Source: Elusimicrobiota bacterium (GTDB lineage Bacteria > Elusimicrobiota > Elusimicrobia > UBA1565). From it: 64,000 nt of DNA. The stretch lies in contig JACRDU010000144.1 in NCBI GenBank assembly GCA_016218495.1, positions 62,001 through 126,000 of the forward strand, read 5' to 3'. The notes beneath the pieces are model-generated. The model ran no database searches, was not told where the DNA came from, and saw only the letters and a list, made by a program, of their open reading frames with translations. This document shows positions 1-10,604 of this stretch, piece after piece; positions within the stretch are counted from its first letter, which is position 1, and every line of letters starts with the position of its first letter. The position numbers and the translations under genes are program-made.

Positions 1-756
1 CTCGGAGAATTCAGGACCCCGGAGAGCGGCATGACGGCGCCGCTGACCGTGTTCTCCGATCAAGGCGACGTCGGTGCGATTCTCTACCGCGCGCGGAGCC
101 ATACGCGTGCGAATAGCGGAATTCTTGTGTTTTCAAGACGCGGGCGTGAGATCGGCCGATATGAGAGTCCCGATTGGTCCCCGGCTTCGCAGGACATCCA
201 GAATCCGCAGGGCGCCGTGCTGGTGCCTCTGGCTCGCGTCGATTCGAGAAACGGAGTGGTAGTGGCCGAAGGATACGCCGTGGAGGGCAGCAGCAGCGTT
301 CGACGCCAAATCCTTGCCATCGATGATACCGGACGTCTTCTCTGGCGCTGGCACCACAGCGTCGACCCTAGGGCGTGTGGGTCTACCTTGCTGGTCAAGC
401 CACAGTCCCAGAGGCTCGGAGTTTTCGACTTCTGTGGTCCAGACGCTCGCGTGACGGAACTGGACCTGCGAACAGGAGCGGAAGTTCGGTCGAGAGAGTT
501 TCGCATTCCTGACGGGCGCACGATCGCAGTCGTAGTCTCAGTGGCCCCAGATGAGGCGGAGACTCTACTGAACCTCAAGCAGGAGGTTCCGGGCGGGCGT
601 GTCAGCCAGTCGGCCCTCTTGCTGGATTCTAGTCTGAATTTGCGTTGGAGAGAGACCTTCGCCGCAAATCTCGGCGGGAGTGCGCGTTTTGACAAGGACG
701 GTTCCGTGATTTTGAGACGAGGAGCACGAGTCTATGTGGGCGCCTTCTCGAAATAG
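1..756 (+). CDS. Propeller-like protein, probably 5' partial
   Basis: The frame is open from the window edge. An ATG at 31 follows GGAGAG at 21-26, so a start there is possible, but the protein from it begins in mid-fold and lacks a signal peptide, unlike its exported neighbours, so I treat the gene as cut by the window. The product carries repeated strand motifs with alternating Asp, Gly and aromatic residues (for example ILAIDDTGRLLWRW and ELDLRTGAE), which resemble PQQ- or WD-type beta-propeller blades. No catalytic motif is visible. It overlaps the next gene by 23 nt, so it probably belongs to the same operon of exported proteins. Its function is unknown. Confidence 0.6.
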   Translation, partial: LGEFRTPESGMTAPLTVFSDQGDVGAILYRARSHTRANSGILVFSRRGREIGRYESPDWSPASQDIQNPQGAVLVPLARVDSRNGVVVAEGYAVEGSSSVRRQILAIDDTGRLLWRWHHSVDPRACGSTLLVKPQSQRLGVFDFCGPDARVTELDLRTGAEVRSREFRIPDGRTIAVVVSVAPDEAETLLNLKQEVPGGRVSQSALLLDSSLNLRWRETFAANLGGSARFDKDGSVILRRGARVYVGAFSK

Positions 757-3700
757 GGTCGCCGCGACCAGCTCGGTCGCGATGCTCCTGATCGCTCTGT
801 CGCCCGGCGTGGGACTTGCCGCAGCGGTGTGGCCGATTTCCAGCGGGACGGTGAATTACCAGGCGATCAGTGATACCTTCGGCGCCTGTCGGTCCGACGA
901 TGACACGGTATGCGACCAGTTTCACACCGCCGTGGATATACTTCCGACCCCGCACTGCGGGACGACGGTATATGCGGCAATTTCCGGGCTCGCTGAGTTT
1001 GGAATTGACTCGGCTGGAGGATACTTCGTTAACCTCAACGACTACTATGAGTATGCCCACCTGGCGACGCATACCATTCAAACACAATTCGTCGTTTCCG
1101 GTGCGAGTATCGGACTCACCAGCAACTCCGGGACTCCGCCGGGGACCGAATGCCACTTGCACTTTACGACGCTGGATCTCCTTCCGAACGTGTGGTCTTC
1201 AGGGTTCGTTTTCTTCAATCCTCTTCTGAAGTTCCCGATTCCAGACACGACGAATGGCGTCATCCAAGAGGTCCTATTCAGGAAGGGAGGTTCCACGGTT
1301 GCGGTAACGGAAGGAGTGATAACGAACTTCGCGCCCCCTCTGGAGGTACTTGCAAGAGGCTCGGATGGCTCGAACTTTCTCTTCTCGGGCGCTACGCAGC
1401 CAGTAAACTGGGCGCGTTTCCGAGCCGTGATTGACACCACGAGCTTCTTGAACGACTACTACTTCAATGCTCTGGAGACAAACAAGCTACGCTTGGAGTA
1501 CCCGGACGCATTCTCGGACGTCTACTCCGTCTCAAATCCAACCTCCACTTTCACGCCGAACAGGCCGTACTACCGAATGGGCGAGACCGGTCTGCTTTCT
1601 GAGGGTTCGCACTATCTTTGCCTCTATGGCTATGACTTGAATGACTACTCTCCGCTATCGCCTGGGACTCGGCTGAGCGCGACGAACTGTCTTAACTTTT
1701 TCTTGGACTTTGCGGCGCCGACCAAGGGGCTGAAGAAGACGGATGGGACCCCAATTCTAAACGGCGGGACCAATGAGACCGCTGTAGTAGTGTCGGCGAC
1801 CGACACCTACGGCCTCCAAAAGTTCGTTTTGTCCGGGCCCACGTCGGCAACGCAGCCGGTCAGCGGGCTGACTGCCACCCACACCTTTTCCAGCCTCGCC
1901 GCGAATTCCACGACGCCCTACGTCGTCGCCGTCCACGACCTCGCCGGCAACGTCTCTTCGGCGCAATTCAATATCGACACAGATCCCGCCGATGACCTCC
2001 CCGCAGTCCCAAGCGGCGGCGGCTCCTTCTCGGGTGGCTGGATCACCAACGACAAATGCGCCGTTTTCCGCGCCCGCGACACCGGCTCCGGCGTCAAGTC
2101 CATGTGCGTCAGTTGTTCCCCCCAGAAGTGCGCCGAATATTCCGTCGGCCCGTCCACCGCGCTTTTTGCGGGGGCCTTCTGCAACCTCGGGCTCGGGACG
2201 TGCACGCAGACCATCACCGACTTGGCCGGCAACACCACGAACTACTACCGGACGGTCTCCTCGACGACAATCCAGTTCGTCCACTCTGTGAGCTCGCCGG
2301 GCTGGAGCAGCGGGGATGTGGCTGTCACCGTCACGACCACGGCTGTGGCCAGCCAAGCCCTGAGCGTCCACGCCGTCATCGTCGGCCTGGGCGCCGGGAC
2401 GTGCAACGGCTCGACGCAGGACGCCTGGTGTGCCAAGATACGGACCACGGGCAACGGGGCCGTCTGGCCATGCGCGTGCGCTTCTGACGGCGCCTCCGTC
2501 GCTTCTTCGATGACATTCTCCGCCCCCGCGACCTCGGTGTCGTATCATGCGGAGAACGCGGGGTCCACGAGTGGAGGGGACCACTTGCGCTTTACCACCG
2601 GCGGACTCGGGGTTGCGCAGATCGAGTACAACAACTTCGGCTGGGAGCCCGGCCATTACGTCGACGGCGTGGTGACCGTTCCCGAAGTGGCCGGAACGAC
2701 CTGGACCAGCGTCAACTCGGACCCCCTCTACGTCTACGCTCCTCTAGGCAACATCGACATCCATGACAGCGCGGCCCTGACGGCGCCGCAAGAGGGGGCG
2801 CGCCTCAAGCAGGTCCTCCGACTCTCCTCGCCTCGGGTCTACACCCTCGACCCGGACGGCCAGACCGTCGTGACGACGACGTTCACCGTCAAATTCCAAT
2901 ACCCTGACGGTGTCGGGACCGATACCGATACCCTGCGCGTCTATTGGTTCGACGGGTCGTCCTGGTCGACAGACTTGTTTTCCGGGCTGAGCATAGCGAA
3001 GGACACATCGAATTATGTTACGGCCATCGTGCAGAGCACGTTTACCGGGGTCTATGCGGCCTTCTTCGACGGGGTCGATTCATCCGCCCCTGTGACCTCC
3101 TGGGCCGTCGAGGGCTCCTCCTCCGGCTTCCAGGGTATCGTCATCCTCTCCACCTATTCCTATTTCGTCCTCTCCTCGACGGACCCCTCCGTCAACGGTT
3201 ACGCATCGGGAGCGGCCACCACCTACTACCGCATAGACGGCCTCCCGGGTGAGCCCTACTCGGCATACTCTTCCTCCCTGAGCGTCCTCCCAGGCACTCA
3301 TTGGGTGGACTACTACGCCGTCGACTGGGCCGGCAACTCCGAATCCGTCTCCCGCGCCACCATCACCGTCACCGCCGGCTCCGTCACCAAGCTCTCCTCC
3401 GATTTGCAGGTCGACGGCAACCTCCTCGTTGGCTTCCTGGGCTCGGGCGCCAAAGCCGAGGTCGTCGCCCGCTCCGAATACGACTATGCCCTCAAGGTCT
3501 CGAGCCCCGACGGCCGGGCCATGCTGGCCGTCGACAACGCCAACTTCGTCTCCATCGGCACCGCCCCGGCGTCGGGCCGCCTGACCTTGCAGGGCGTATC
3601 CGGCGATGCGGCCCTGGCCCTGCGCACGGGGAACTCGACGGCCTCCCTCACGGGCGCCCAAATCGCCCTGGGCTACGACGGCTCGGGCCAGTTGCGCCAT

Positions 3701-4279
3701 GCCCTCGTGACCCAGCACGGCTCGGCCGCCTATAACAACCGCCTCGAGTTCGACCTGTGGAGCCCCGACTCGAGCTCGGGTTCGCTGGCGGGCGTCCGGG
3801 GCCTGTCCTTGCAGGGCAGCACCAAGACGGCGGCCGGGGCGCTGGTGGAGGTGCGCCCTGTGGACATCACGGGCGACCCCGCCGATGCGGAGTTGGAGGT
3901 CTCAAACGGGGTGGCGCACGGGGCGGGCTATGTGCTGCGCGCCGACGTCATCACTTTGAGCTCGCGCGGCTTCAAGCGGGACATCCACCGCCTCACGAGG
4001 AAGGACGAAGAGCAGGCCTACAAGGACATCGCTGCCCTCATGCCTGCGGTATTCAGGAGGAAGCGCCGGGGCATGGACGGCTCCCTCCATTCCGACCCCT
4101 CGGCCGCCCTGGAGCGCGGCCTCATCTATGAAGAGACCCCGCAGAGCATCCGCGGGCGGCCGGGGGAGATTATCTACGACGAGCGGCTGGTCAACGCGGA
4201 GCTGGCCCTCAAGGCCGCCATGCGCCGGATTGAGGAGCTCTCCGCGAGATTGAAGAGATTGAAGGAGCAAGGCCGATGA
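734..4279 (+). CDS. Exported M23-like peptidase/S74 chaperone fusion
   Basis: A 1,181-aa protein with a signal peptide (hydrophobic stretch about 12-30, ending LAAA). Residues ~55-150 look like a LytM/M23 zinc endopeptidase: FHTAVD supplies H64 and D68, YAHL has H109, and CHLHF supplies H141 and H143, so the usual zinc ligands are present. The middle (~330-900) is a series of Ig-like or fibronectin-like segments with D-x-AGN loops. The end (~1076-1181) resembles the peptidase S74 intramolecular chaperone: SSRGFK places S1076 five residues before K1081, as in the known Ser/Lys dyad, followed by an LIYEE motif and a terminal helix. GGAG lies at 721-724 upstream of the ATG. Likely a surface or secreted trimer that cleaves off its chaperone; substrate unknown. 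Confidence 0.75.
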   Translation: MWAPSRNRVAATSSVAMLLIALSPGVGLAAAVWPISSGTVNYQAISDTFGACRSDDDTVCDQFHTAVDILPTPHCGTTVYAAISGLAEFGIDSAGGYFVNLNDYYEYAHLATHTIQTQFVVSGASIGLTSNSGTPPGTECHLHFTTLDLLPNVWSSGFVFFNPLLKFPIPDTTNGVIQEVLFRKGGSTVAVTEGVITNFAPPLEVLARGSDGSNFLFSGATQPVNWARFRAVIDTTSFLNDYYFNALETNKLRLEYPDAFSDVYSVSNPTSTFTPNRPYYRMGETGLLSEGSHYLCLYGYDLNDYSPLSPGTRLSATNCLNFFLDFAAPTKGLKKTDGTPILNGGTNETAVVVSATDTYGLQKFVLSGPTSATQPVSGLTATHTFSSLAANSTTPYVVAVHDLAGNVSSAQFNIDTDPADDLPAVPSGGGSFSGGWITNDKCAVFRARDTGSGVKSMCVSCSPQKCAEYSVGPSTALFAGAFCNLGLGTCTQTITDLAGNTTNYYRTVSSTTIQFVHSVSSPGWSSGDVAVTVTTTAVASQALSVHAVIVGLGAGTCNGSTQDAWCAKIRTTGNGAVWPCACASDGASVASSMTFSAPATSVSYHAENAGSTSGGDHLRFTTGGLGVAQIEYNNFGWEPGHYVDGVVTVPEVAGTTWTSVNSDPLYVYAPLGNIDIHDSAALTAPQEGARLKQVLRLSSPRVYTLDPDGQTVVTTTFTVKFQYPDGVGTDTDTLRVYWFDGSSWSTDLFSGLSIAKDTSNYVTAIVQSTFTGVYAAFFDGVDSSAPVTSWAVEGSSSGFQGIVILSTYSYFVLSSTDPSVNGYASGAATTYYRIDGLPGEPYSAYSSSLSVLPGTHWVDYYAVDWAGNSESVSRATITVTAGSVTKLSSDLQVDGNLLVGFLGSGAKAEVVARSEYDYALKVSSPDGRAMLAVDNANFVSIGTAPASGRLTLQGVSGDAALALRTGNSTASLTGAQIALGYDGSGQLRHALVTQHGSAAYNNRLEFDLWSPDSSSGSLAGVRGLSLQGSTKTAAGALVEVRPVDITGDPADAELEVSNGVAHGAGYVLRADVITLSSRGFKRDIHRLTRKDEEQAYKDIAALMPAVFRRKRRGMDGSLHSDPSAALERGLIYEETPQSIRGRPGEIIYDERLVNAELALKAAMRRIEELSARLKRLKEQGR

Positions 4280-5160
4280 AAGCTCTGCTCGTCCTCCTCA
4301 TCGTGGTCGCCCCGGCGGGGGCCCAGACCGTCTTCGATTCCGAGGCCTGGGCGCCCGGCAAGACCGGGGTGGGGACGGACAGCCCCGGGGCCCGGTTCGA
4401 GAGCCGGGCCTCTTCGACTACGGCGGCCGCCTTCCAGGTCTCGGGGGTGGACCTGTCCCCGGCCTTGCGCGTCGGGGCGGACGGGACCTTGGGGCTATCC
4501 ACGGCCTCGGCGGCGCGGGCGACGGTGTCGGGGGCGGGGGAGGCGGGGGACCTGGCCCTGGAACTTCGCGGCCCCGAGCTCCAGTCCGGTACTTCGAGCT
4601 ATCAGCTGACCTTGGGCTACGCGGGGGGGGCGCTCTACCGGCACGCCGTCCAGAGCGGCCACGGGGTGGCGCCGTCCTCTTCCAGCCTGAGCTTCCTGGT
4701 CTGGACCCCCGCAGCCGCCTCGGGCCAGATCGCCTCCCGGCGTGTCCTCCAGCTCATGACCCACTCCACCGGGGTCCTCGTCCACGTCCTGCCCCCGAAT
4801 TCGGGGGTGGGACCGCTGGGGCAACTGGTCGTCTCGGACGGCTCGTCCTGGGGGACCGGGACCATGCACGACGCGGGGGAAGGCTCGGTTTCTTCGGCGC
4901 GGCTCAAAGACGACATCGAGTACCTGGGACCCGACGCTGAAAGGGAAGCCTATGCCGAGGCGGCCGCCCTGCGCCATGTGAGCTTTCGCTTCAAGGCGAG
5001 AGGGGCCAGGGTCCAGCGCGGAATCCTCTACGAGGAGGCCCCCGAGAGCGTGCGCTACCCGGGCGGCGGCGTGTCCTTCGACCGCCGGCTCCTCAACGCC
5101 GAGCTGGCCGCCAAGGAGCTCCTGCGCCGACTGGGCGACCTGGAGAGGGAGGCGCCATGA
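4276..5160 (+). CDS. Exported protein with C-terminal S74-type chaperone
   Basis: A 294-aa product with a short signal peptide (MKALLVLLIVVAPAGA). The body (~80-200) shares with both neighbours a module reading LELRGPELQSGTSSYQLTLGY, a glycine-rich beta pattern like phage tail-fibre shafts. The C-terminus is the best S74 match in the window: SSARLKDDI puts S206 five residues before K211, then GILYEEAPESV and a helical tail with NAELAAKELLRRL. S74 domains assist trimer folding and then cut themselves off. The start overlaps the previous stop as ATGA and has AAGGAG at 4262-4267, so the two genes are probably translationally coupled. No receptor- or substrate-binding function can be assigned. 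Confidence 0.75.
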   Translation: MKALLVLLIVVAPAGAQTVFDSEAWAPGKTGVGTDSPGARFESRASSTTAAAFQVSGVDLSPALRVGADGTLGLSTASAARATVSGAGEAGDLALELRGPELQSGTSSYQLTLGYAGGALYRHAVQSGHGVAPSSSSLSFLVWTPAAASGQIASRRVLQLMTHSTGVLVHVLPPNSGVGPLGQLVVSDGSSWGTGTMHDAGEGSVSSARLKDDIEYLGPDAEREAYAEAAALRHVSFRFKARGARVQRGILYEEAPESVRYPGGGVSFDRRLLNAELAAKELLRRLGDLEREAP

Positions 5161-6074
5161 AGGCTCTGGCCCTGCTCGTGCTCCTGCCCCTGGCCGCCTC
5201 GGCCGGGACCCGCACCTCGGGCGACCTGACCGTCACCGGCGCTATGGGGGCGGGGACGCTGGTCCCGCGCGCGGCCCTTGAGGTGGGGATGCAGCCGGAG
5301 GACGCCTATGCCCTCAAGGCCTCGAGCCCTGACGGCACGGCCCTCTTCTTATTCGACCGCTCGGCCAAGGCCGGGTTGGGCCTGACGCCTACAGGCTCGC
5401 GCCTCACCGTCTCGGGCCAAGCCGACGCTGGGGAGGTGGGCCTCGAGCTGCGCGCGGGAAACTCGTCTTCTTCCGTGACGAGCGCGCAAATCGCCTTGGG
5501 CGATGAAACAGGTGCCTACCGCCACGACATCCGGACCCGGGCGGCGGGCGGACAGCGCGAAGGCAACGCCGTGGACTTCTACCTCTGGAATTCCGCCGAC
5601 GCTGTCTACGGATTGGGCTCGGAAGAGGCCATGAGCGTGCAACTGGGGACCGAGTCCGGCATGTCCGGCTGGCATGTGGACCCCTCCAGCGACCCGGTGA
5701 CGGTCGAGCTCGTCGTCTCCAGCGGCGGGGTCTACGCCGGCGGCGTCATCGTGCGCGGCTTCTGGGCGACCCACTCCTGCTTCGCGGCCATGAAGGAGGG
5801 GGTGAGGCGCCTCGGCGAGGTGGAGCGGGTCCGGGCGGCAGCCGACCTGGCTTCGCTCAGGCCGGTGCGCTTTCGCTACAAGGGCGACCCGCGCGGGACG
5901 CGGCGCACCGGGCTGAGTTATGAAGAGGCGCCCGAGAGCGTCCATGGTCCGGGCGGCTCGGTGTCGGTCAAGGAGCGGCTGATGAACCTGGAACTGGCCC
6001 TGCAGGCGGCCCAATCTAGGATAGTGACGCTTCAGGCCGAGGTGGAACGGCGGGAGAAGGGGAGGGCAAGATGA
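5157..6074 (+). CDS. Exported S74-like protein, atypical active site
   Basis: A 305-aa paralogue of the preceding gene, with a signal peptide (MKALALLVLLPLAASA). It keeps the shared module (YALKASSPDGTALFLFD, then GLELRAGNSSSSVTSAQIALG) and the S74-like end with GLSYEEAPESV and a long terminal helix. The self-cleavage site differs: the stretch is HSCFAAMK, so the residue five before K213 is C208, with S207 six before. Either Cys serves as nucleophile, the alignment slips by one, or this copy does not cleave. It overlaps the genes on both sides by 4 nt. Export and the family relation are well supported; function is not. Confidence 0.72.
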   Translation: MKALALLVLLPLAASAGTRTSGDLTVTGAMGAGTLVPRAALEVGMQPEDAYALKASSPDGTALFLFDRSAKAGLGLTPTGSRLTVSGQADAGEVGLELRAGNSSSSVTSAQIALGDETGAYRHDIRTRAAGGQREGNAVDFYLWNSADAVYGLGSEEAMSVQLGTESGMSGWHVDPSSDPVTVELVVSSGGVYAGGVIVRGFWATHSCFAAMKEGVRRLGEVERVRAAADLASLRPVRFRYKGDPRGTRRTGLSYEEAPESVHGPGGSVSVKERLMNLELALQAAQSRIVTLQAEVERREKGRAR

Positions 6075-6787
6075 GGAATTTCCTGGCGGCGGTCCTGTTG
6101 GCGGCGCTGGCGCTGCCGGCGGAGGCGGACGTGGTCGACAGCGGGAGCCTCATCATCGGCCAGCAGGGCATCATCGGCGGGACGATGACCGTGCAGGGGA
6201 ACGCCTTCAGCGTGGGAGGCAGCGTTTCGGCTTCCAGCGCGACGTTAACGGCGACCGGCGCGACCATCTATTCCCTCACGACTTCCTCGAGCATCCATCT
6301 TCTGGCGGGAGGACTTAGATGGGCCGACGGGACGCTCAGCACCTCCGCGTCGCAAGCGTCTGGAACGGGATTGGCCTCCAGCAGCGCGACGACGAACATG
6401 ACGTCGACAAGATTCACGGGGCCCGCCTTGCTAGGGGCGTGCGTGACAGGCTCAACGATCACCTTGACCAGTTCCGGCGCAAACGTGGCCGTTTGGTTTA
6501 CGGGCACCTGGCAGACCGACTCGTATTACTTTACTCGGTTGGGATTCTTGGTCGACGGCCAAATCCCGGCGGGGATGACAAATGACCTGGGAGTCGTAAC
6601 CGGCCAGCCGATTTCCCTCAACAACCCGACCCCCATCTCCTTCTACTTCGCCACCCAAGTCACCGCAGGATCGCACACGTACTGCCTGACTGCTTCATCG
6701 AAGGGCACCGGCCCCCTTCTCGATGTGCCGGCGCCCACCAACCAGATTACGACCCTCTCCCAGTTTGGAGTCATGGAACTAAAGTGA
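6071..6787 (+). CDS. Small secreted beta-rich protein of the S74 operon
   Basis: A 238-aa product with a signal peptide (MRNFLAAVLLAALALPAEA). The N-terminal half is a Ser/Thr/Ala-rich repeat region with short alternating motifs (SSATLTATGATIYSLTTSSS), as in collagen-free fibre shafts. The C-terminal half (~115-238) looks like one compact beta-sandwich with two Cys (GACVTGS and TYCLTAS) that could form a disulphide. It lacks the S74 tail of the two genes before it. It overlaps the previous gene by 4 nt and is the last of the run. A C1q/TNF-like head is a possible fold, but I do not recognise the family. Confidence 0.65.
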   Translation: MRNFLAAVLLAALALPAEADVVDSGSLIIGQQGIIGGTMTVQGNAFSVGGSVSASSATLTATGATIYSLTTSSSIHLLAGGLRWADGTLSTSASQASGTGLASSSATTNMTSTRFTGPALLGACVTGSTITLTSSGANVAVWFTGTWQTDSYYFTRLGFLVDGQIPAGMTNDLGVVTGQPISLNNPTPISFYFATQVTAGSHTYCLTASSKGTGPLLDVPAPTNQITTLSQFGVMELK

Positions 6788-6841: not shown

Positions 6842-7393
6842 ATGCTCGCCAATATCGCCATCGGAATGCTCGAGACCAGCTCCATCGCCAAGGGCGTGGA
6901 GGCCTCCGACGCCATGTGCAAGATGGCCCAGGTGGAGCTCGTGAAGACCGCCGTCGTCGCGCGCGGCAAGTACACCATCCTCATCAAGGGTCCCGTCGGC
7001 GAGGTGGAGATGTCGCTGCGCGCCGGCATCAACATGGCCGGCAAGAGCGTGGTCGACCAGTTCATCCTGCGCAATGTGCACCAGCAGGTGCTCGATTCCC
7101 TCGATAAGCGCCTTCCTGTCGCCAAGCTCGACGCCTACGGCCTCATCGAGACCAAGGAGGCCATAGCCGCCGTGCGCGCCGCCGACGCCGCGGCCAAGTC
7201 CGCCAAGGTCCACCTCATAGAGGTGAAGACCGCCATCGGGGGCGGCAAGGGCTATGTGGCGATGACCGGAGAGGTCGGCGCCGTGCGCACCGCCGTCGGC
7301 GCCGGCATCGCCGAGGTCCCGGAGGGGATGCTCGTCAGCCACATCGTCATCCCCCAGCCCGACTCCCAGCTCCTCAAGACGGTGGGCGCGTGA
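6842..7393 (+). CDS. BMC-T tandem-domain shell protein
   Basis: A 183-aa protein with two BMC folds in tandem. The first is ~5-90 (GMLETSSIAKGVEASDAM, then KGPVGEVEMSLRAG). The second is ~96-180 (GLIETKEAIAAVRAADAA, then MTGEVGAVRTAVGAG). BMC-T proteins form pseudohexameric trimers in the facets of bacterial microcompartments; size and order resemble the PduT branch. No Cys lies at an obvious pore position, so an iron-sulphur pore is not indicated. It is the first gene of the microcompartment operon, and its TGA overlaps the GTG of the RpiB-like gene by 4 nt. Confidence 0.9.
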   Translation: MLANIAIGMLETSSIAKGVEASDAMCKMAQVELVKTAVVARGKYTILIKGPVGEVEMSLRAGINMAGKSVVDQFILRNVHQQVLDSLDKRLPVAKLDAYGLIETKEAIAAVRAADAAAKSAKVHLIEVKTAIGGGKGYVAMTGEVGAVRTAVGAGIAEVPEGMLVSHIVIPQPDSQLLKTVGA

Positions 7394-7833
7394 GGCTGGT
7401 CATCGGCTCGGACCACGGCGGCTTCGAGGCCAAGGAAGAGCTCAAGGAATTTCTCCAGAAGCTCGGCCACGAGGTCACCGACTTCGGCTGCCACTCGCTC
7501 GAGGCCGTGGACTACCCCGACATCGCCCAGCTCGTCGCCGAAGCGGCGGCGGGCGGTCAGTTCGAGAAGGGCATCCTCTTGGACGGCTTCGGCGGGGCGG
7601 TCTGCATGGTGGCCAACAAGGTCAAGGGCTGCCGGGCCGTGTCCTGCTACGACGTGACGGCCGCCAAGCTGGCCGCCGCCCACGACGACGCCAATGTCAT
7701 GTGCCTGGGCGGCAAGACCCACGGCGAGCTCGCTCTGCAGGAAATCTCCAAGGCGTTTCTGGAGACGAAGTTCGAAGGCGGGCGTCACGAAAGGCGGCTC
7801 GCCAAGGTCGCGGCGCTGGAGGCGCGCAGATGA
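7390..7833 (+). CDS. rpiB: RpiB/LacAB-family sugar-phosphate isomerase, BMC-associated
   Basis: A 147-aa protein matching the ribose-5-phosphate isomerase B fold over its full length: GSDHGGFEAKEEL at the N-terminus, DYPDIAQLVAE, VANKVKGCRAV, and FEGGRHERRLAKV at the end. The family interconverts ribose 5-phosphate and ribulose 5-phosphate or related sugars. Two active-site segments deviate. The usual GILICGTGIG reads GILLDGFGGA, placing D65 where the E. coli enzyme has its catalytic C65, and the usual HNDAN reads HDDAN at H98. The enzyme may use an acidic base or act on another sugar phosphate. GTG start coupled to the shell gene; RpiB-like enzymes are known in sugar-phosphate-utilising BMC loci. 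Confidence 0.85.
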   Translation: MRLVIGSDHGGFEAKEELKEFLQKLGHEVTDFGCHSLEAVDYPDIAQLVAEAAAGGQFEKGILLDGFGGAVCMVANKVKGCRAVSCYDVTAAKLAAAHDDANVMCLGGKTHGELALQEISKAFLETKFEGGRHERRLAKVAALEARR

Positions 7834-7838
7834 GAGGC

Positions 7839-8348
7839 TTAGGACTTCGCTTCGAGAGAGGTGAGGCGCCGTCCGTGGTCGCGGAGCGCGTCAGTGTGCT
7901 CCACGAGCATGGCGCCGTGAGTGACGGCCTTCCGGTCGTAGGTCTCGCCCTTCTTCGCGAAGGCGTCGATGGAATCGAGGATACGGCTGGTGTGGCGCTC
8001 CATCATCGCCAGAAGTTCCGCTTTCACCCGGTCGGCCTTGGCGTCTGCTCGCACGACGGCTGCGGCAAGTTTGGAGATGTCGCCTTTGAGCTCGGACTTG
8101 ACGGCAGAGATATCGCCTTTGAGCTCGGACTTGACGGCAGAGATATCGCCTTTGAGCTCGGACTTGACGGCAGAGATATCGCTTTTGAGCTCGGACTTGA
8201 CGGTGGCGATGTCGCCTTTGAGCTCGGACTTGACGGCAGAGATATCGCTTTTGAGCTCGGACTTGACGGTGGCGATGTCGCCGGTCAGGACCTTCTGGAG
8301 GGAATCCAGGTCGTCCTTGGCCACCGAGCCGTCTTTCCTCTGCGCCAT
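7839..8348 (-). CDS. Coiled-coil protein with 11-residue repeats
   Basis: A 169-aa product on the strand opposite to the BMC genes. Residues ~22-95 are hendecads of the type SDISAVKSELK, giving a continuous amphipathic helix expected to form a coiled coil. The C-terminal part (RADAKADRVKAELLAMMERH onward) is also helical but not repetitive. No signal peptide or membrane segment is seen. Because 33 nt is a multiple of three, other frames stay open across the repeat; I chose this one for its ATG and its coherent helical sequence on both sides. No clear SD precedes the start. Whether it serves the microcompartment is unknown. Confidence 0.6.
   Translation of the reverse strand: MAQRKDGSVAKDDLDSLQKVLTGDIATVKSELKSDISAVKSELKGDIATVKSELKSDISAVKSELKGDISAVKSELKGDISAVKSELKGDISKLAAAVVRADAKADRVKAELLAMMERHTSRILDSIDAFAKKGETYDRKAVTHGAMLVEHTDALRDHGRRLTSLEAKS
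8085..8282. repeat. Six 33-nt tandem repeats
   Basis: Six direct copies of a 33-nt unit begin at 8085, 8118, 8151, 8184, 8217 and 8250, each starting TTTGAGCTCGGACTTGACGG on the plus strand. Copies differ mainly at two spots (GGCAGAGATATC or GGTGGCGATGTC, and GCC or GCT). They encode the hendecads of the minus-strand coiled-coil protein. The near identity points to recent expansion by slippage or unequal exchange. Confidence 0.9.
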
Positions 8349-8410
8349 GGGGACATGATACCATCGCTCAGGGCGGACGACACGGGCCCAAAGGCCCAGA
8401 GGATGACGAC

Positions 8411-8695
8411 ATGAAAGCCGCCCGGGTCGTCGGCCGCGTCTTCTGCACCCGCCAATATCCCACGCTGGCCGGCAAGAAGCTGCTGCTCATCCAGCCCATG
8501 GACTGGGAGACCAAGGAGGACAAAGGCGGGCCCATCGTGGCGGCCGACGCCTGCGGCTCCGGATCCTCCGAGTTCGTCTACTGGGTGGCCTCGCGCGAGG
8601 CCGCCGTGGCCTTCGACGACCTGCCGCCCGTCGACGCCGCCGTCATCGGCATCATCGAGGGGCACCAGGTGAAGGATTTTAGAGGCAAGGCCTGA
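8411..8695 (+). CDS. BMC-P (EutN/CcmL-type) pentameric vertex protein, copy 1
   Basis: A 94-aa protein of the EutN/CcmL/CsoS4 family. It begins MKAARVVGRVFCTRQYPTL, matching the family's N-terminal strand, has KKLLLIQPMD, then AADACGSGSSEFVYWVAS around the conserved turn, and ends AAVIGIIEG. Pentamers of this family cap the vertices of the microcompartment shell. AGAGGATGACGAC precedes the ATG. It is the first BMC gene after the inverted coiled-coil gene, so it may need its own promoter or read-through. Its TGA overlaps the next ATG by one base. Confidence 0.9.
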   Translation: MKAARVVGRVFCTRQYPTLAGKKLLLIQPMDWETKEDKGGPIVAADACGSGSSEFVYWVASREAAVAFDDLPPVDAAVIGIIEGHQVKDFRGKA

Positions 8696-8991
8696 TGTTC
8701 ATCGCCGAGGTCGTGGGCAACGTCTGGGGGCAGTACAAGCACAAGAGCCTCGACAGCAAGAGGCTGCTCCTGGTGCGCCCCATCGACCCCATGACGGAGA
8801 AGCCCACCGGCGAGGCCATGATGGCCGTCGAGGGCGGCGTGGGCGCCGGCCCGGGCTCCATCGTGCTCGTCATAGACGAGGGCACCGGGGCCAGACAGAT
8901 TCTAAACGACAAGGCGGCGCCGGTCCGGACCGTCGTCTGCGGCATCATCGACCGCGTCTGCATGAACGGCAAGGAGAAAGGATATGACTGA
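8695..8991 (+). CDS. BMC-P (EutN/CcmL-type) pentameric vertex protein, copy 2
   Basis: A 98-aa second vertex protein: [47 protein letters not shown] and CGIIDRV are the family's strand and turn motifs. It diverges from copy 1 in the middle loop. Two or more BMC-P paralogues are common in BMC loci and may form vertices with different properties. It overlaps the start of the aldolase gene by 8 nt, so shell and enzyme are probably translated together. Confidence 0.9.
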
Positions 8992-9979
8992 GGCAGAGTT
9001 GCGCGTCATCGTCGAGGCCGTGGTGAAGGAGCTGGCGTCCCGCGGCGTCCTCAAGTCCTGCTCCTGCTCGGACGCGCCCAAGCGCGAGGTGAAGGTCACC
9101 ATCGGCACCGCCGGCAAGGTGTTCGGCCCCTCCGAGTTCTCCTTCAAGAAGCAGACGGCCGTCCCCACCAAGCCCGTCTCGGCCGACGCCGAGAAGGACC
9201 ACACCCACGGCCCCGACTGCCCGCACTGCCAGCCGCTCTCGCCCAAGGCCGCCCAGGCCTTAAAGGATTTGGGCGCCGACCGCATCGGGGTCTGCCATCC
9301 CATGAAGGGCTGCAACGCCATCGCCCCGGTCGTCGACCATACCTTGCTCAAGCCCAACGCCACCCAGGAGGAGGTCGCCAAGCTCTGCCAGGAGGCGCGC
9401 ACCTACTGCTTCGCGTCGGTGTGTGTGAACCCGACCTATGTGGGCCTGTCCGCCCAGCTCCTCAAGGGCTCGGGGGTCAAGGTCTGCACCGTCATCGGCT
9501 TCCCGTTGGGCTCCACCACGCCGACGGTCAAGGCCATCGAGGCCCGCGACGCCATCGCCAACGGGGCGGATGAAATCGACATGGTCATCAACGTCGGGGC
9601 CCTCAAGAGCGGCAACGACGCCCTGGTGAAGGGCGACATCCAGGCCGTGCGCGACGCCACGCGCGGCAAGGTGCTGAAAGTCATCATCGAGACCTCGCTC
9701 CTGTCCGACGACGAGAAGGTGCGCGCCTGCAAGATGTCCAAGGAGGTGGGGGCCGACTTCGTGAAGACCTCCACCGGCTTCGGCCCGGGCGGGGCCACGG
9801 CGGCCGACGTGGCCCTCATGCGCAAGACCGTGGGGCCGCTCATGGGCGTGAAGGCCTCGGGCGGCATCCGCGACACCGCCACGGCCCAGGCCATGATCGA
9901 GGCCGGGGCCACGCGCCTGGGCACCTCGGCCTCGGTGGGCATCGTCACCGACGCCAAGCCCGCGGGGAAGGGCTACTGA
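8984..9979 (+). CDS. deoC: Deoxyribose-phosphate aldolase with N-terminal extension
   Basis: A 331-aa protein; ordinary DeoC is about 220-260 aa. Residues ~110-325 are a complete class I aldolase barrel: D199 in [11 protein letters not shown], Schiff-base K261 in [12 protein letters not shown] and K290 in [10 protein letters not shown] are all present, so activity is expected (2-deoxyribose 5-phosphate to acetaldehyde and glyceraldehyde 3-phosphate). The extra ~105 residues start with an amphipathic helix ([20 protein letters not shown]) like known BMC encapsulation peptides. They continue with a CSCSD cluster and [11 protein letters not shown], which could bind a metal. AAGGAG precedes the ATG. 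Packaging into the compartment is inferred. Confidence 0.93.
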
Positions 9980-10308
9980 TGAAGAAGCACGAGATCCTGC
10001 TGCGCATCGACCTGCAGTGCGGCACTTGCGGGGCGCTGACCCACCGGGGGGAGACCGTCGACTCCTCCGAGAAGAAGCCCAAGGACAAGCCCTTCAACCC
10101 GGCCGAAGGCGTGAAGTTCTGCCCCTGCTGCGGGGCGGGCTACGAGCGCTACTGCATGCGCTGCCACAAGAAAGCGGACATGTTCTTCGAGGAGTACTGG
10201 CCCGAGGAGGACGAGTGCGTGCGCACCTACGTCCCGGCCAAGCGCTGTTCGTCGTGCAACGCCGGTCTCGAAGTGGATCATCGCGGTAAGGACAAACCCG
10301 AGGAGTGA
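9979..10308 (+). CDS. CxxC-rich putative metal-binding protein of the BMC operon
   Basis: A 109-aa protein with four CxxC-type pairs: CGTC (~15-18), CPCC (~47-50), CMRC (~58-61) and CSSC (~94-97). This spacing suits two zinc ribbons or a rubredoxin-like iron site. The rest is charged ([11 protein letters not shown]) and the protein is not exported. It sits directly between the aldolase and BMC-H genes, with its ATG overlapping the deoC stop, so a role in the compartment (redox, scaffold or regulation) is plausible. I do not recognise the family. Confidence 0.7.
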
Positions 10309-10310
10309 CA

Positions 10311-10604
10311 ATGGCAGAAATCAAAGAAGCGCTGGGGCTGGTCGAGACGAAGGGGTTCGTGGGCATGATCGAGGCCACCGACGCCATGGGCAAGGCCGCC
10401 AAGGTCAAGATGCTCGGCTACGAGCGCATCGGCTCAGGCCTGGTCACCACCCTGTGCCGGGGCGAGGTCGGCGCCGTGCGCGCCGCCGTCGAGGCCGGTG
10501 CCGCCGCCGCGCAGCGCGTGGGGGAGCTGGTCGCCGTCCATGTCATCCCACGCCCGCACGATGACCTCGAGAAGTACCTCGACAAGATCTCCATCAAGGT
10601 CTAG
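10311..10604 (+). CDS. BMC-H hexameric shell protein
   Basis: A 97-aa single-domain BMC protein: [37 protein letters not shown], then [20 protein letters not shown] and [14 protein letters not shown]. This is the standard PduA/EutM/CcmK fold that tiles the shell facets. The pore loop has the family's GSGL turn. I place the start at the ATG at 10311, which has GAGGAG at 10300-10305; a GTG two codons upstream lies inside that site. It follows the stop of the CxxC gene by two bases. It is the only BMC-H gene visible in the window. Confidence 0.93.

Follow-up and report, generated by a model that had tools for sequence, protein, structure and literature searches.

In the closest described systems, a C-terminal S74 intramolecular chaperone (ICA) domain cuts itself off by means of a Ser/Lys dyad. 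In phage T5, S1264, activated by K1269, cuts the scissile bond T1263-S1264, and an Arg of the neighbouring chain serves as a folding sensor (PMC4690869). MyRF is cut at P586-S587 with K592, in a reaction that depends on the trimer and does without a stalk sensor (PMC8326128). In an exported S74 fibre of Bdellovibrio, S782A blocks cleavage (PMC10769870). The S74 trimers in this literature are homotrimers, and in the open-access literature we found no description of a Cys version of S74 or of a mixed-chain S74 trimer.

Here we analysed a window of 64,000 nucleotides, the whole stretch of DNA under study, from an Elusimicrobiota genome bin of 4.15 Mb. Three tandem ORFs in it (734-4279, 4276-5160 and 5157-6074) each carry a C-terminal S74/ICA domain. 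According to the original prediction, the three tandem genes encode exported proteins of the S74/ICA type, and the catalytic position of the third is occupied by Cys; both the sequence and the homology tests bear this out. The predicted ORFs and six residues (S1076/K1081, S206/K211 and C208/K213) agree exactly with the sequence.

Architecture and distribution of the cassette

The features of the locus are listed below.

734-4279, plus strand: gene 1, 1181 aa, exported; signal peptide, M23-like head, Ig/OmpL47-like region, tail-fibre-like stalk and S74/ICA domain, with the S74 call made via homology to the paralogs
839-1228, plus strand: M23-like peptidase head of gene 1; motifs HxxxD (H64/D68) and HxH (H141/H143), weak phmmer match to 5j1l (E=0.012)
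3203-3370, plus strand: OmpL47-type domain of gene 1, residues 824-879; NCBIfam NF047446, 48.8 bits (cut-off 40)
3959-4276, plus strand: S74/ICA domain of protein 1; S1076 codon 3959-3961, K1081 codon 3974-3976
4276-5160, plus strand: gene 2, 294 aa, exported; stalk and S74/ICA domain, 4-nt overlap with gene 1
4891-5157, plus strand: S74/ICA domain of protein 2 (PF13884); S206 codon 4891-4893, K211 codon 4906-4908
5157-6074, plus strand: gene 3, 305 aa, exported; stalk and Cys/Lys S74/ICA domain, 4-nt overlap with gene 2
5778-6071, plus strand: Cys-type S74/ICA domain of protein 3; C208 codon 5778-5780 (TGC), K213 codon 5793-5795, S207 codon 5775-5777
6071-6787, plus strand: gene 4, 238 aa, exported; 4-nt overlap with gene 3, first ~90 residues conserved, C-terminal part variable

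The overlaps that join genes 1-3 (4276-4279 and 5157-5160) read ATGA, and a plausible signal peptide is seen by eye at the N-terminus of proteins 1, 2 and 3. The distance from the stalk to the Lys is 175-180 residues in all 18 cassette proteins. The stalks are similar to tail-fibre proteins of phages; that of protein 3 matches one from a cyanophage (31.6% over 54%) as well as a PHROG tail-fibre family. Gene 4, which has two Cys in its C-terminal part, accompanies every cassette copy in the same place.

The head of gene 1 carries both zinc motifs, HxxxD and HxH, without a match to Pfam PF01551, a profile that the ortholog in genome G001 passes with 35.5 bits. The head varies by genome, being M23-type here (by motif only) and in G001 (PF01551), Amidase_6 in G006 (28.3 bits) and NlpC-like in G009 (by eye). 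Heads are thus swapped between genomes with the remainder conserved (734-1228; L133:7134; L134:1907; L135:16350). All of them, whether M23 or papain-like, look like peptidoglycan or cell-wall hydrolases.

The trio was found in six copies in 5 of 341 genomes of the phylum: the source genome has two (contigs C115 and C21), and single copies occur in two further members of the genus, in one genome from elsewhere in the family and in one from a different family of the same order. It is absent from all other genomes among the 341. In a tree of the 18 proteins, three orthologous groups correspond to the gene positions (supports 99/95, 100/99 and 89/88). Since each position forms one orthologous group, the triplication probably predates the split of these families. 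A prophage origin of the cassette was rejected, as protein 2 has no relative in the viral contigs and protein 3 has only partial stalk/ICA matches in phage records.

Several features of the surroundings were also recorded. An ORF at 31-756, with a weak PQQ/BamB-like match, shares 23 nt with the beginning of gene 1, and no similar gene was found in the stretches examined around the other cassette copies. Directly downstream, a microcompartment operon (6842-10604) encodes two BMC-domain proteins, two EutN/CcmL vertex proteins, an RpiB-type isomerase and a DeoC-type aldolase, resembling sugar-phosphate-type BMC loci. Between the BMC genes, an ORF on the minus strand (7839-8348) contains repeated, coiled-coil-like 11-residue units (ISAVKSELKGD). 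BMC-T, RpiB and DeoC have counterparts of 84-89% identity in G001, where they likewise adjoin the S74 cassette. In addition, two exported proteins of the gene-4 type are encoded near each other in G001, with different C-terminal parts (L133:12330-14100).

Homology to S74 and conservation of the cysteine

The Pfam scores of the three proteins against PF13884 (cut-off 22) are weak. Protein 2 reaches 19.2 bits in hmmscan and 22.5 bits in the genome search, protein 3 reaches 12.1 bits, and protein 1 has no match; their C21 copies score 23.7 bits for protein 3, above the cut-off, and 21.4 bits for protein 1. Therefore, homology was tested further by profile comparison and a structure model. A profile of the four Cys-group domains matches the one built from 20 canonical S74 domains of Elusimicrobiota (E=2e-12) and that of the 14 Ser-type cassette domains (E=3.7e-35). 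The canonical profile in turn matches solved ICA domains including MyRF 7dc3, 6f45 and 3gud. Searching the PDB with protein 2 by phmmer yielded no useful match.

The full-length model of protein 3 was poor (pLDDT 49), so the ICA domain was modelled alone. The AlphaFold model of residues 185-305 has a mean pLDDT of 84, with the linker before the Cys poorly modelled (pLDDT <50 over the first 18 residues). Its best PDB match is the MyRF ICA crystal structure 7dc3 (probability 1.00, TM about 0.6, E=2.4e-3); 4uw8, 3gud and 3gw6 are also among the matches, non-significantly (probability <=0.30, E >= ~0.6). The predicted fold has the elements expected of an ICA domain, namely a short helix, beta strands with a GxIAQE-like motif and a long C-terminal helix. 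The S74 assignment of the three proteins is secure. Clear non-homology to S74, which the original prediction had named as fatal to its claim, is rejected by the two profile matches and the fold match to 7dc3.

Ser five residues before the Lys (K-5), as expected of Peptidase S74, is found in proteins 1 and 2 and is invariant in all their copies. Over the whole set, 14 of the 18 cassette proteins have it, that is, all but the gene-3 orthologs of the genus, and the Lys is invariant. The other S74 matches of the phylum have Ser at K-5 without exception (65/65). Protein 3 has C208 and K213 instead, and its four genus orthologs all read S/S/T/P-C-F-x-x-[MLI]-K. By sequence, then, protein 3 is an S74 homologue but not a serine peptidase.

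The C208 codon is TGC in all four orthologs, and synonymous divergence is mostly near saturation, which rules against chance or a sequencing error at this position. On the tree, the Ser-to-Cys exchange is a single change on the genus stem. Across the linker (residues 197-223, 27 positions), only I198, C208, F209 and K213 are invariant in the four orthologs; for both dyad positions to fall among these 4 of 27, p is about 0.017 with n=4 sequences. The gene-3 ICA is under purifying selection (dN/dS 0.15-0.34) and diverges somewhat faster, with a mean identity of 56% between chaperones vs 65% and 63% for genes 1 and 2. C208 is the sole Cys of mature protein 3, and no copy of protein 1 or 2 has a Cys in the stalk/ICA portion of its mature form, leaving no disulphide partner in the chain or in those portions of its paralogs. 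In this lineage, the catalytic Ser has been replaced by a conserved Cys.

The nucleophile and candidate mechanism of protein 3

We propose that the genes of this cassette are co-translated and give rise to an exported assembly resembling a phage tail fibre. To it, proteins 1-3 would each bring a beta-rich stalk, close to the others in length, and an S74/ICA chaperone at the C-terminus. If these domains behave like those of T5, K1F and MyRF, trimerisation via the terminal helix of the chaperone would unite the dyad, after which the chaperone would cut itself off. The proposed nucleophile of proteins 1 and 2 is Ser (S1076 and S206), five residues ahead of the Lys. For protein 3, the likeliest reading is that C208 acts with K213 in the same way, through an N-to-S acyl shift and thioester hydrolysis, so that its chaperone would be released just before C208. 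The assembly would display the enzymatic head of gene 1. An N-to-S acyl shift is established chemistry, as in inteins.

We assign a probability of about 0.5 to protein 3 cleaving itself with Cys as the working nucleophile. This reading draws on the invariance of Ser at K-5 and of Lys in 14/14 paralogs and orthologs and in the 65 other matches of the phylum, on the retention of C208, F209 and K213, on the sole mature Cys, on the fold match to 7dc3, on purifying selection and on an independent Ser-to-Cys swap in phages. Counted against it are the altered site, the register chosen by the aligners, the sample of four sequences, the poorly modelled linker, the faster divergence and the lack of a clear Arg sensor.

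The register of the site bears on which residue could act. From the last stalk Gly to the Lys there are 17 residues in all Cys orthologs and 16 in all Ser copies, indicating that the Ser-to-Cys change came with a one-residue insertion; together with the Phe that follows the Cys in all Cys orthologs, this alters the site beyond one atom. Counted from that Gly, S207 occupies the Ser place of the other 14 proteins, and MAFFT and hhalign both align S207, not C208, with the catalytic Ser, which would make S207 the true nucleophile and C208-F209 the following residue plus an insertion. However, the S207 position is Ser, Ser, Thr and Pro in the orthologs, and Pro cannot serve, whereas C208 and K213 are invariant. 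The spacing of nucleophile and Lys is also five in every other S74 inspected, as well as in T5 and MyRF. Counted from the Lys, the ortholog with PCFSDIK aligns gap-free with PSSREIK of G006. Because of this alignment and the Pro, C208 is very probably the better nucleophile candidate, and catalysis by S207 is highly improbable. The original prediction would have fallen with S207 in the active site; that outcome appears unlikely, even though the aligners favour it.

Alternatively, protein 3 may be a non-cleaving paralog in which the Cys and the inserted residue disabled cleavage, the chaperone staying on as a trimer partner or surface element. This is possible, though we hold it less probable than cleavage by Cys. 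The otherwise universal Ser, the extra linker residue of the Cys copies (17 against a constant 16 in the Ser copies), and the faster divergence of the gene-3 chaperone would all fit a lost activity. The persistence of both C208 and K213 over mostly near-saturated synonymous divergence, however, would be unexpected for a decayed dyad unless it is structural, and phage fibres have swapped Ser for Cys at the same spacing. The earlier suggestion of a non-cleaving chaperone kept on the surface is thus mildly disfavoured by the retained Cys and Lys. As the protein is exported, the lone conserved Cys could also serve in redox chemistry or disulphide bonding instead of acting as a nucleophile; it might pair with another chain or a different exported protein, linking trimers or binding gene 4, which has two Cys in its C-terminal part. 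We consider this very unlikely: proteins 1 and 2, in their mature form, offer no Cys in stalk or ICA, the three lone Cys of a homotrimer cannot all pair, and the exact placement at K-5 would be a coincidence.

Should protein 3 cleave by Cys, S74/ICA would be added to the families of self-processing domains that can use either Ser or Cys. Should it not cleave, it would be a conserved non-cleaving ICA paralog that shows the role of a retained chaperone. Tandem Ser and Cys copies within one operon make an easy natural test.

Synteny, the 4-nt overlaps, the matched stalk lengths and the single enzymatic head on gene 1 would also allow a mixed three-chain fibre. The three genes might then encode an obligate heterotrimeric S74 fibre with one chain each and one enzymatic head. 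Ser/Lys would cut two of its chains and Cys/Lys the remaining one, making this third cut chemically distinct and perhaps timed or redox-gated. We regard this as doubtful; paralogy alone could account for the synteny, the overlaps and the matched lengths. A fixed trio of S74 paralogs does render heterotrimerisation of such fibres directly testable.

Comparison with phage, bacterial and eukaryotic ICA systems

Pattern scans of viral contigs rejected the uniqueness of Cys/Lys. Of the 51 sites that matched a CDxRxK-type pattern, 22-23 have an S74-like motif downstream. With two-codon patterns that differ only in the first base, 42 S74-like sites were found for Ser (AGY) vs 11 for Cys (TGY); another Cys pattern gave 8 sites, none S74-like. 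Most phage Cys sites lie in short domains with only ~25 residues after the motif. One family of tail-fibre-like proteins (L151, L156, L159 and L179) has a full-length ICA with Cys, and its relatives (L382-L385) keep Ser in the same place, gap-free. The expectation that a Cys/Lys version would be unusual thus stands within the phylum, where 0/65 other S74 matches carry Cys, but it is not without parallel in phages.

Across L137-L187, many short phage C-terminal domains read [SC]DxRxKENI...G.MAQEV, often with Cys and with ~25 residues after the motif. It is possible that they form an ICA-like subfamily without the trimeric helix.

Like protein 3, the phage Cys/Lys domains have the Cys five residues before the Lys. 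They differ in belonging to independent lineages, in reading CDxxxK with Asp after the Cys and in lacking the linker insertion, and most are short, without a long coiled coil. The phage S74 fibres and spikes (T5 pb1, K1F endosialidase, GA-1/phi29 appendage) share with the cassette a C-terminal chaperone after a beta-rich trimeric stalk, and with proteins 1 and 2 the Ser/Lys dyad. In contrast to them, the cassette is bacterial and exported, comprises three paralogs with Cys in the third, and has Pfam scores near or below the cut-off. The MAT fibres of Bdellovibrio (S74 group, e.g. Bd3182) are also bacterial exported fibres with a self-cleaving S74; their motif is SDxxxK with Ser, and no three-paralog overlapping operon is described for them in the part of the source drawn on here (PMC10769870). 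These fibres have in common a beta-rich domain of ~130 aa that directly follows the signal peptide.

MyRF provides the best fold match of protein 3 (7dc3), shares the dyad spacing of five and needs no stalk Arg sensor. By eye, the linker sequences of the cassette have no clear conserved counterpart of the neighbour-subunit Arg sensor of T5 and K1F, which brings these domains closer to MyRF on this point. In several cassette members, the nucleophile is also preceded by Pro, as at the P586-S587 cut. MyRF differs in its Ser nucleophile and in being a homotrimeric, eukaryotic membrane transcription factor. With the Cys kept across the genus and an independent swap in phages, protein 3 appears to be a variation, particular to its lineage, on a known machine and not a new kind of machine.
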